Assembly (NCBI GenBank): GCA_945861265.1
Contig: CAMAUC010000031.1
Coordinates: forward strand, 1-35,452
Length of the DNA: 35,452 nucleotides
Reading direction: 5' to 3'
DNA from: Rhizobium sp. Q54
Lineage (GTDB): Bacteria > Pseudomonadota > Alphaproteobacteria > Rhizobiales > Xanthobacteraceae
Part shown: piece by piece, positions 10,155 through 27,783 of the stretch
How positions within the stretch are numbered: position 1 is the stretch's first letter
Layout: each line of letters starts with the position of its first letter
Translations under genes and position numbers: made by a program
Notes under the pieces: model-generated
Databases searched by the model: none
What the model saw: the letters and a program-made list of their open reading frames with translations, nothing else
What the model was told of the DNA's origin: nothing

Positions 10155-10189
10155 GACCAGGGGCCTTGCTAGTAATTCCAGCCGACATC

Positions 10190-10205
10190 GCAGCCTCGCG
10201 GCTGC
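10190..10205 (-). other. GNRA-tetraloop hairpin in the terC leader
   Basis: On the minus strand GCAGCC-GCGA-GGCTGC forms a 6-bp stem with a GCGA tetraloop, 36-51 nt upstream of the terC start. Flanking GGGCCCC (near 10210) and GGCCCC (near 10160) blocks may pair with each other's surroundings. A structured leader is plausible; I could not fit a known riboswitch consensus. Confidence 0.4.
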
Positions 10206-10239
10206 CAGAGGGGCCCGGTCTGGCGGTGGGATTTTGCGA

Positions 10240-23804: not shown

Positions 23805-23971
23805 CTAGTGGTCCGATTCTAACATTCGCACCCCATCTGCGGAGCCACTATTGCGAATGTTAGAATCAAAGGACCACTAGCAAGTTATTGCTGCTAGTGG
23901 AGCTTCGGATTTGACGTTCGCTTAGGATAATTGCGGCAATCCGGCGGCGAACGTCAAATCCGCTCCACTAG
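23805..23971. repeat. Paired CTAG-bounded hairpin element, locus 1 (167 bp)
   Basis: Two long hairpins separated by exactly 13 nt. H1 (23805-23880, 76 nt) has a 10-bp stem CTAGTGGTCC, then a 16-bp stem GATTCTAACATTCGCA, with an AAA bulge on its 3' side and a 21-nt loop. H2 (23894-23971, 78 nt) has CTAGTGGAGC, a TTC bulge on its 5' side, then 15 bp GGATTTGACGTTCGC, and a 25-nt loop with GGATAATTGCGGCA. All listed stem pairs are Watson-Crick. The element is intergenic between two ydcH-like genes. The rest of this gap (23972-24181) shows nothing I can name. Confidence 0.93.
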
Positions 23972-25423: not shown

Positions 25424-25547
25424 CGTATCCACCTGATGAATGGTCCGCATTTCTACTATTGATTTGGTTTATGCGATAGCCGGGCCTAGCGTTGGCCGGC
25501 CAAAGCTGCCCGGTTTAACGTGGCGGCGATCGGGAAGGGGAACGGCC

Positions 25548-26549
25548 ATGGACAGTCTTTCGCGTCGCGCGCTCCTGAGCGCCGCAGCGGCCGGCGCAAC
25601 GACGGCGGTCGTCGCAGCGGCCGGCGGTCGCCCGGCTCTTGCCGCCGCGCCGCAGAGCGGCCAACAGGCGCCCGGCTTTTATCGCTACAAGGTCGGCAGT
25701 ATTGAAATCACCGTGCTGAACGACGGCGTCAGCCGGATGCCGATCACCGACGGCTTTGTCGAAAATGCCACCAAGGACGAAGTCAACGCGGCGCTCGACG
25801 CGGCCTTTCTGGAACGGGATTTCTACGCCGGCCCCTATAACCCGATCGTCATCAATACGGGCACCAAGCTCGCTTTGGTCGATACCGGCACCGGCGACGA
25901 AGGCTTCAAGTCGAGCAAAGGGATCAATGGCCGCCTGCCGATCAGCCTCGCCGCTGCCGGCATCGATCCGGCTTCGATCGATGCGGTGATTATCTCGCAT
26001 TATCACGGCGACCACATCAACGGCCTGATCAAGGCCGACGGCTTGCTGGCTTTTCCCAACGCGGAAATTCTGGTGCCGGCCGCCGAACACAAGTTCTGGA
26101 TGGACGATGGCGAGATGAGCCGCGCGACCAAGCCGCGCGTCGTCTTCGGATTCAAGAATGTACGCCGTGTATTCTCGTCCGAGGTGCTCAAGCGTTTACG
26201 CACCTACGACTGGGGCAAGGACGTCATCGGCGGCGTCACCGCCATCGCCACGCCCGGCCATACGCCAGGCCACAGCGCGCACGTCGTGTAATCCGGCGGC
26301 AAATCGGTCTATGTCCAGGCCGACGTCACGCACGCACCGTTTCTGTTTGCGCGTCATCCGGAATGGCACTTCATGCTGGACGTCGATCCGGTCGCCGCCG
26401 AAGCCACCCGCCGCAAGGTCTACGACATGCTCGTTGCCGATCGAATGCTGGTACAGGGATTCCACTATCCGTTTCCGGCGGTCGGTCATGTCGAAAAAAG
26501 CGGCGCCGGCTATCGGGAGGTTCTTGTGAACTGGTCGGCGGCGATCTGA
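25548..26549 (+). pseudogene. Metallo-beta-lactamase-fold hydrolase interrupted by in-frame TAA
   Basis: The frame codes an exported MBL-fold hydrolase of 333 residues if the TAA at 26289-26291 (codon 248) is ignored. It has GGAAGGGGAA before ATG 25548 and a twin-arginine-type signal (SRRALLSAAAAGATTA). The first metal ligands HYHGDH are at 151-156 and GHTPGH at 237-242. After the stop the same frame continues with clear family sequence: YVQADV, holding the bridging Asp (codon 259), and GFHYPFP, holding the last His (codon 306), to TGA at 26547. A 247-residue product would lack these two ligands and probably be inactive. A sequencing error or a true nonsense mutation are both possible. The LysR gene opposite is the likely regulator. 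Confidence 0.85.
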
Positions 26550-26558
26550 GGCGTCCCC

Positions 26559-26725
26559 CTAGTGCCGCCGATTTGAAGTTCCTGCATCACCTGCCGCGAG
26601 ATCCATCAGGAACTTCAAATCGATAAGCGGCACTAGAATCAGATACTTGCTAGTGCCCCTTTGTTTCCGAAGTTCGTGTCAGTGCTCGCTGCGATGTATC
26701 ACGAACTTCGGAAACGGGGCACTAG
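26559..26725. repeat. Paired CTAG-bounded hairpin element, locus 2 (167 bp, inverse orientation)
   Basis: Two hairpins again 13 nt apart. H3 (26559-26636, 78 nt) has CTAGTGCCGC, then 16 bp CGATTTGAAGTTCCTG, a 4-nt ATAA bulge on its 3' side and a 22-nt loop. H4 (26650-26725, 76 nt) has CTAGTGCCCC, a TTT bulge on its 5' side, then 16 bp GTTTCCGAAGTTCGTG and a 21-nt loop. Its reverse complement aligns with locus 1 in element order, lengths and bulge side. It starts 9 bp after the TGA of the broken hydrolase gene and ends 74 bp before the first receptor gene. Confidence 0.93.
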
Positions 26726-26799
26726 GCATTGCAAAATCATTACTGGTAGGCTCCGCGCATCCGAGACACGACCGCGGCAACCATAGAAGGCTAAACGCC

Positions 26800-27783
26800 A
26801 TGCGAAACTCGAAAGTAGTCCTGACCGCGGCCTTATTCGTTTGCGCAGTCGCCTTCGCGCCCGGCCATGCCGTGGCCGCGACCGATTATCCGACGCGGGC
26901 CATCACCATCATCGTGCCCTATCCGGCCGGCGGCGGCGTCGACGCAATGGCCCGGGTGGTCGGGCAAAAACTGTCGGACGCCTTCAAGCAGCCGGTCAAT
27001 GTCGAGAACCGCGGCGGCGGCGGCGGCACCATCGGCTATCGCGCCGTGTCGCGCGCCGCGCCGGATGGCTACACCTTGCTGCTTGGCCACACCGGTTCGG
27101 TGTCGATCAATCCCAGCCTCTACGTCAATCTCGGCATGAACCCGACCAAGGATTTCGCGCCGATCGGCCTGATCGCCTCGATGCCGGTGGTGTTGCTTGC
27201 CAATCCGTCGTTTCCAGCCAAGACGGTCGCCGAATTCATTGCGCTCGCCAAGAAGGAACCGGGCAAGCTCAACATCGGCACCTCCGCGGTTGGCACTGGC
27301 GGCTATATGGCGGCCGAGCTGTTCAAGTCGGTGGCCGGCATCGAAGGCACCATCATTCCGTACAAGGGCACCGCGCCGGTGATGAACGATCTGCTCGGCG
27401 GCCATGTCGCGATCGCCTTCGGCGTGCTGCCACCCGCGCTCGGCAATATCGAGGCCGGCAAGTTGCGCGCGGTCGCGGTGGCGAGCCCAAAGCGTTTCTC
27501 GCTGCTGCCCAATACGCCGACTTTCGACGAGACCGGCCTGCCGGGCTTTGAGGCGGTACTGCACTACGGCCTGCTGGCGCCGGCCGGCACGCCGCCGGAG
27601 ATCGTCGAAAAACTCAGCGCCGAACTGCGCAAGCTCGCCGACGACAAGGATGTTCAGCAGCGCATCCACATGGAAGGCGGCGATCCGATGACCTCGACCG
27701 CGGCGGAATATGCCGCCGATATCGCCACGGAAGAAAAGAAATGGGGCGGCCTGGTGCGCAAGCTTAACCTCAAGGTCGATTGA
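26800..27783 (+). CDS. Tripartite tricarboxylate transporter substrate-binding protein (Bug family), copy 1
   Basis: A 327-residue periplasmic solute receptor of the Bug/TctC family. The signal peptide is MRNSKVVLTAALFVCAVAFAPGHAVAA. The family hallmarks are YPTRAITIIVPYPAGGGVDAMARVVGQKL near residues 30-55, NVENRGGGGGTIGYRAVSRAAPDGYTLLLG, and IPYKGTAPVMNDLLGGHVAIAF. These bind carboxylates for TctAB-type permeases; the ligand cannot be read from the sequence. ATG 26800 follows AGAAGG; upstream in-frame ATGs give an unrelated N-terminus. The next gene is a second receptor 22 bp on. No TctA or TctB permease is present in the window. Confidence 0.93.
   Translation: MRNSKVVLTAALFVCAVAFAPGHAVAATDYPTRAITIIVPYPAGGGVDAMARVVGQKLSDAFKQPVNVENRGGGGGTIGYRAVSRAAPDGYTLLLGHTGSVSINPSLYVNLGMNPTKDFAPIGLIASMPVVLLANPSFPAKTVAEFIALAKKEPGKLNIGTSAVGTGGYMAAELFKSVAGIEGTIIPYKGTAPVMNDLLGGHVAIAFGVLPPALGNIEAGKLRAVAVASPKRFSLLPNTPTFDETGLPGFEAVLHYGLLAPAGTPPEIVEKLSAELRKLADDKDVQQRIHMEGGDPMTSTAAEYAADIATEEKKWGGLVRKLNLKVD

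Follow-up and report, generated by a model that had tools for sequence, protein, structure and literature searches.

The locus at positions 26559-26725 raises the question of what kind of entity a pair of CTAG-bounded hairpins at a fixed distance represents, how it came to stand where it is, and why its stems remain paired. The window, i.e. the whole stretch of DNA analysed here (35,452 nucleotides), contains two such loci. As described in the original prediction, and with every coordinate and length exact, locus 2 (26559-26725) consists of two CTAG-bounded hairpins in the order 78-13-76, 167 in total, and locus 1 (23805-23971) follows the order 76-13-78, that is, the locus-2 unit in the opposite orientation; the agreement between the two quoted spacers, given there as 9 of 13 positions, is 8 of 13 on recounting. 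We consider it likely that the 167-bp locus is a non-autonomous mobile element that inserts at CTAG and is built of two inverted palindromic units around a putative IHF site. The element is about 163 bp long plus the target CTAG, and lands mostly between genes. The features of the two loci are the following.

26559..26636, + strand: hairpin alpha of locus 2, 78 nt (sequence, inverted repeat, folds and hairpin parse)
26559-26568 / 26627-26636: foot of alpha, 10 bp, with CTAG at each end
26569-26584 / 26607-26622: stem of alpha, 16 bp, with the loop at 26585-26606
26623-26626: 4-nt bulge ATAA of alpha, on the spacer-facing arm
26637..26649, + strand: spacer of locus 2, 13 nt, AATCAGATACTTG, a putative IHF site
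26650..26725, + strand: hairpin beta of locus 2, 76 nt (sequence, inverted repeat and folds)
26650-26659 / 26716-26725: foot of beta
26660-26662: 3-nt bulge TTT of beta, on the spacer-facing arm
26663-26678 / 26700-26715: stem of beta, with the loop at 26679-26699
26559..26562, no strand: CTAG of the left boundary, the insertion target, single in the empty sites of the relatives G037 and G024
26722..26725, no strand: CTAG of the right boundary, a duplicated (or element-carried) copy of the target, from the empty-site comparison
23805..23880, - strand: hairpin beta of locus 1, 76 nt, of the other subfamily (type A)
23881..23893, - strand: spacer of locus 1, CAGCAATAACTTG on the alpha-to-beta strand, with 2 mismatches to the IHF consensus
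23894..23971, - strand: hairpin alpha of locus 1, 78 nt

The pattern CTAGTG-N50-75-CACTAG occurs exactly 4 times in the window, whereas 100 shuffles give a mean of 0.02. Folding energies, computed for locus 2, are far below those of shuffled sequences both as RNA (-92.4 versus -43.8 kcal/mol, z -12.3) and as DNA (-57.7 versus -19.7, z -12.4).

The same architecture recurs in copies from other genomes, collected with a finder that accepts hairpins of 64-90 nt whose feet have at most one mismatch to CTAGTG/CACTAG and whose neighbours lie 8-20 nt apart. Among the 187 distinct units that could be oriented (9 of 196 could not be oriented by the rule used and are excluded from these counts), alpha measures 75-81 nt with mode 78, beta 73-79 with mode 76, and the whole unit 163-171 with mode 167; the spacer is 13 nt long in 137 units and has other lengths in 50. 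Read from the outside inwards, alpha and beta are similar, each starting with the CTAGTG foot followed by stem blocks of 10 bp and 16 bp, and their arms resemble each other more when they belong to one unit than when they come from different units (0.622 versus 0.540, reached in 0 of 5000 shuffles). Each hairpin carries a bulge of 2-5 nt, mainly A, on the arm that faces the spacer, and both bulges face it in 150 of 153 neighbouring pairs (loci not deduplicated). Thus the unit is an inverted dimer. In addition, the loop motif GCNGC is present in 29 and 19 of 39 representatives (alpha and beta, respectively), the means for shuffled loops being 5 and 4.

Copies are mostly pairs at a fixed spacing rather than single hairpins or hairpins at unrelated distances. 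Of the 153 neighbouring pairs, 103 lie 13 nt apart, most loci having been fetched with a pattern that demands 11-16 nt, and 18 of the 19 hairpins sought singly in the genome to which the window belongs (G000, the host genome; 3.75 Mb in 133 contigs) are matched by a partner outer arm one unit away. The opposite tendency is seen in a 400-kb sample of G084 chosen by position, where 18 hairpins have no neighbour at 8-20 nt, some of them being halves of units interrupted by another unit.

That the doublet moves as a whole is seen from its empty sites. At locus 2, the G037 and G024 genomes align with the flanks of the window and have one CTAG in place of CTAG-unit-CTAG, the region being too diverged to judge in the other two of the four aligned relatives (G035 and G031). 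Locus 1 is without the unit in G024, G002, G014, G013, and G035, and the sites there read CAAG or TAAG, so the duplication of the CTAG target is clean at one site only, that of locus 2. The locus-1 orthologue of G037 (L045) has a 20-nt remnant, CTAGTGGATCGGACCACTAG, at the place of the unit, which suggests an internal deletion or an excision scar. Units also insert into one another. Samples of 400 kb contain 11 neighbouring hairpin pairs with one common CTAG in the complete genome G084 and 3 in G161; in G084 some units stand end to end, and others are nested at the inner CTAG, between a hairpin and the spacer. Of all CTAGs, 138 of 242 in the G084 sample and 88 of 290 in the G161 sample lie inside hairpins. 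In a relaxed search, CTAG is found at both outer ends of 129 of 160 doublets, and the ten bases flanking each side of these 160 have no strong consensus. Taken together, the empty sites and the shared and nested CTAGs identify the doublet as the moving entity and CTAG as its target: the doublet inserts in full, and the CTAGs of other units are among the sites used.

The host genome holds 19 exact hairpins. Queries with the outer arms of two subfamilies retrieve 11 pairs in it, 7 of type A and 4 of type B, some with mutated feet, as well as three lone or broken copies on contigs C5, C28, and C86; the unit is therefore dispersed, and its 167 bp have no coding capacity. The single-hairpin pattern is present in 24 of 40 genomes of the genus, at least one of these matches being due to chance (L030), and the stricter doublet pattern in 121 of 391 genomes of the family, in 28 of its 47 genera. 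The numbers of forward doublet matches reach 349 in G084 and 290 in G161. Mutated copies are present in G033, and other genomes negative for the exact pattern may hold them too. In a sample of the phylum, the doublet was found in 4 of 398 genomes, all from the class of the window genome, and in none of the 263 sampled proteobacteria outside that class. Among the matches listed in a scan of named genomes are Hyphomicrobiales, Sphingomonadales, Caulobacter, Hyphomonadaceae, Parvularculaceae, Rhodospirillales, and other alphaproteobacteria, four of the listed loci being labelled Proteobacteria only. Of 79 stretches of viral contigs, 6 pass the test for facing doublets; in L373 (1586-1700) and L387 (2566-2680) a common repeat containing CACTAGTG mimics the doublet pattern and there is no doublet. 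The plasmid search gave no match for locus 2 and four records matching locus 1. One of these, the Aminobacter plasmid pSR3 (L456), has at 2501-2670 a match 75% identical to locus 1, inside an ectoine-uptake cluster, between ehuC and the gene of the substrate-binding protein.

Hundreds of gene-less copies pose a concrete search problem, namely which enzyme moves them. The search covered the RAYT/Y1, IS200, and IS481 families. In the 101 loci scanned, 30 of which were the best RAYT matches, doublets or hairpins occurred only at IS200 and IS481 loci. The IS200-type transposase, which resembles that of ISMex34, is encoded in 9 of 391 genomes (E up to 1e-30). In four of the five copies inspected (L292-L295, not L296), one of the five having an internal stop, a CTAG lies at a short and similar distance outside the left-end hairpin. 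Two of them, in L292 (G075) and L295 (G332), at about 1230-2060, abut the outer end of a doublet and have CTAG beyond their other end; the doublet CTAG at the junction reads CTAA or GTAA. An IS481 copy in L262 (G115; 1375-2421), with CTAG at each end, lies a few bases away from a doublet. These IS200 and IS481 copies look like CTAG-seeking insertion sequences that land at the doublets. Their presence demonstrates that these bacteria have CTAG-specific enzymes of two chemistries. Our tentative suggestion, which we hold to be possible rather than probable, is that the doublets form a class-wide family moved at CTAG by a hairpin-recognising enzyme outside the RAYT, IS200, and IS481 families, co-evolving with both hairpins. 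If this reading is true, one genome holds several subfamilies matched in specificity.

Two other assignments of the enzyme are compatible with the anatomy. The doublet might be the MITE of a DDE transposase with a CTAG target (IS481 or IS5/IS630-type), bounded by ordinary terminal repeats, which we find doubtful. The TG..CA ends with CTAG on both sides agree with it, as does the occurrence of CTAG at both ends of the true IS481 in G115. However, IS481 matches over the curated cut-off are found in only 4 of 18 doublet-bearing genomes, compared to 2 of 16 genomes negative for the exact pattern, and are absent from G000, G084, and G161, so that IS481 was rejected; weaker matches are present in 31 of the 34 genomes. 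Neither an autonomous element with doublet ends nor any arm pair beyond the distance of one unit was found in the host genome, searched with the arms of two subfamilies at up to two mismatches. Clusters of ORFs near doublets (at least four loci; clusters unannotated) appear by eye to be transporters, kinases, and enzymes, and no transposase was recognised among them. Moreover, linear terminal repeats would need neither the pairing within each hairpin nor the inward bulges.

The second assignment, a REPIN or BIME proper spread by RAYT or by another Y1 transposase (IS200/IS605-like) that would cut single-stranded DNA at the tetranucleotide foot, appears to us unlikely. It draws on the pair of inverted palindromes with a tetranucleotide foot and a bulge, on the unchanged target in the empty-site comparison of locus 2, and on the CTAG outside the left-end hairpin of the ISMex34-like copies, two of which abut a doublet. 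At the same time, RAYT (NF047646, E<=1e-10), present in 156 of 391 genomes of the family, is not enriched where doublets abound (20 of 54 genomes with at least five forward doublet matches versus 136 of 337 others; Fisher p 0.76), and G161, with its 290 forward matches, has no match to RAYT or Y1_Tnp, nor has G000. The Y1 family (PF01797), absent from G000 and found in 4 of 40 genomes of the genus, had no CTAG hairpins at the five loci inspected and was likewise rejected. The restriction of doublets and hairpins to IS200 and IS481 among the scanned loci also speaks against this assignment, and the ends of the IS200 copies are, by eye, unlike the hairpins.

The preferred reading of a CTAG-inserting element with two hairpins is supported by the stems, which co-vary. 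Among 39 representatives (less than 88% identical over the outer arms), most variable positions have two to four types of Watson-Crick pairs, with 96% / 94% of the cells paired. Arms pair with their own partners at 0.965 / 0.955 (alpha / beta), values slightly flattered by the choice of the bulge length that maximises pairing, versus 0.577 / 0.625 with partners dealt from other representatives and 0.13-0.34 with slid partners. The covariation check put forward in the original prediction was run against a tree-aware null, in which an equal number of changes was re-placed on a FastTree tree of 174 rows in 200 simulations, and the result is far above it: 14 of 26 pairs in alpha and 10 of 26 in beta exceed every simulation, and 3 of 26 positions show coupling between the alpha and beta outer arms. 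Hence the stem structure is kept via compensating changes, as had been claimed. The interpretation of this pattern as selection on structure holds for the compensating changes; what it misses is that the locus is a CTAG-targeted mobile repeat with inverted palindromes around a conserved spacer. Mismatches of the A.C type are no rarer than G.T (36 versus 38 in alpha, 74 versus 44 in beta), which means that there is no RNA-wobble signature.

A mutational origin of the near-perfect arms, by template switching that corrects quasi-palindromes rather than by selection on pairing, is in our opinion quite unlikely. The arms are indeed near-perfect in the 39 representatives, and the lone copy on C86 of the host genome has lost its bulge; yet 150 of 153 pairs have retained their asymmetric inner bulges, and correction explains neither the spacing nor the conserved spacer.

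The alpha-to-beta consensus of the 137 spacers of 13 nt is AATCATAAAnTTG, with T12 in 135, T11 in 122, G13 in 120, and C4 in 102 of them. The consensus of the IHF site given in PMC9820253 is also 13 bp long, WATCARNNNNTTR, and the spacer of locus 2 fits it exactly. Of the 137 spacers (the 50 units with spacers of other lengths lie outside these counts), 5 have no mismatch to this consensus, 45 have one, 29 two, 19 three, 12 four, 18 five, 7 six, and 2 seven; thus 79 of 137, and 12 of 16 divergent representatives, have at most two mismatches, and 39 of 137 have at least four. The mean for the 16 representatives is 2.25 mismatches versus 5.24 with shuffled bases, and the reverse complement fits poorly (at least four mismatches in 15 of 16). 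Patterns of equal degeneracy do as well in 0.2% of permuted and 0.02% of random cases. Position 6 is T in 100 of 137 spacers, where IHF prefers A or G, and one G084 subfamily has five mismatches. Since the spacers are related, the fit amounts to about one observation, that of a conserved 13-mer matching 8 of 9 specified positions. An IHF alpha gene is present in the host and scores above the curated cut-off (132.5 versus 120.25 bits; the search covered IHF alpha only). From the consensus fit and this gene, the spacer is a probable IHF binding site. In 75 of 187 oriented units the spacer contains a GANTC (CcrM-type) site or has one at its edge; the GANTC site overlaps the putative IHF site.

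According to PMC9820253, IHF bends DNA by about 160 degrees and also binds four-way junctions. The following mechanism can be proposed. IHF would bind the spacer and bend it sharply, bringing the two palindromes together, and these, in single-stranded or supercoiled DNA, would fold out into hairpins or cruciforms. The feet of the hairpins might then be recognised by a trans-acting transposase, which would cut at CTAG, the bulges of 2-5 nt on the inner arms allowing it to tell outer from inner ends. Once inserted, the unit may act as a feature of chromatin or of transcript ends, by analogy with the BIME-1/RIB elements of E. coli.

The elements named RIB and RIP are grouped here with BIME-1. In E. 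coli BIME-1, as described in PMC2817692, oppositely oriented palindromic units have an IHF-interacting sequence between them. The doublet has the same layout of two opposed palindromic units at a short, near-constant distance with, judging by sequence fit and the host gene, a putative IHF site between them, the comparison being one of layout. It differs in its longer hairpins (76-78 nt), CTAG feet, CTAG insertion, lack of association with RAYT, and occurrence, so far as seen, in alphaproteobacteria only. By this analogy, the doublet, with its probable IHF site, would work as a BIME-1/RIB that is long and mobile. With the GTAG REPs and REPINs it shares inverted palindromes tagged by a tetranucleotide, a non-autonomous nature, and several families per genome; in contrast to them it has CTAG for GTAG, about two to four times the length (REPs measure 20-40 bp according to PMC3733652), and no RAYT association. 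Identity with the GTAG REPs is ruled out by the tag, CTAG being at both ends in 129 of 160 doublets, and by the enzyme. Bacterial MITEs are similar in being short, devoid of coding capacity, and bounded by inverted repeats, and in the CTAG duplication seen at locus 2, whereas the doublet has, in place of a single pair of terminal repeats, two hairpins that are each self-contained, and no parent insertion sequence was found among the families searched. Some small mobile sequences contain IHF sites, as noted in PMC2229807.

The CIR and RIME repeats have an inverted-repeat organisation. They are, like the doublet, intergenic repeats of alphaproteobacteria, CIR of Caulobacter and RIME of rhizobia (described in PMC10969869 and PMC2573895); the doublet could be identical with one of them. 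Br-REP1 of Bradyrhizobium japonicum is reported in PMC5082802 as an intergenic palindrome found in 3'-UTRs, with the consensus CCGGAATCTCGAGATTCCGG, inside a three-palindrome element; CTAG is missing from this consensus, unlike the feet of the doublet. The earlier statement that no named family has this exact layout agrees with the open-licence literature, the search of which did not find the doublet layout in print and is for its scope a weak one; at the same time the architecture is that of BIME-1/RIB, and the doublet may prove to be a CIR or RIME repeat.

These data suggest that the BIME-1 layout, opposed palindromes plus an IHF site, originated, or else was retained, in a second large class of bacteria, its form in alphaproteobacteria being longer, mobile, and targeted to CTAG. 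The doublets also make up a natural covariation data set for the recognition of DNA hairpins, and they supply candidate IHF sites and CTAG landing pads throughout alphaproteobacterial genomes.

As to the gene context, none of the 21 hairpin pairs of the G161 sample overlaps heuristic ORFs (at least 300 nt), which cover 85% of it; in the G084 sample 14 of 36 pairs do, several at ORF edges. The orientation relative to the GC skew is opposite in direction in the two samples, with small numbers in both. Locus 2 precedes a gene of the TctC family. That the doublet is mainly an RNA element (a 3'-UTR double stem-loop, terminator, or mRNA stabiliser), its repeats being kept for this role, is very improbable in spite of the highly stable RNA fold of locus 2 and its start 9 nt past the TGA that closes an open frame, since terminator-like sites are lacking in 26300-26900, G.U is not in excess over A.C among the mismatches, locus 1 is situated between two small ORFs facing outward, and the neighbours of the 21 pairs in the G161 sample have mixed orientations (tandem 8, divergent 6, convergent 6, contig-edge 1). 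The gene upstream of locus 2 (25440-26549), of the metallo-beta-lactamase superfamily (PF00753), has an in-frame stop and is either a pseudogene or affected by a sequencing slip. Rfam gave no gathering-level match at either locus; its only match in the window is the terC RNA (RF03067, 52.9 bits) at 10174-10226, directly upstream of a TerC-family gene (PF03741).
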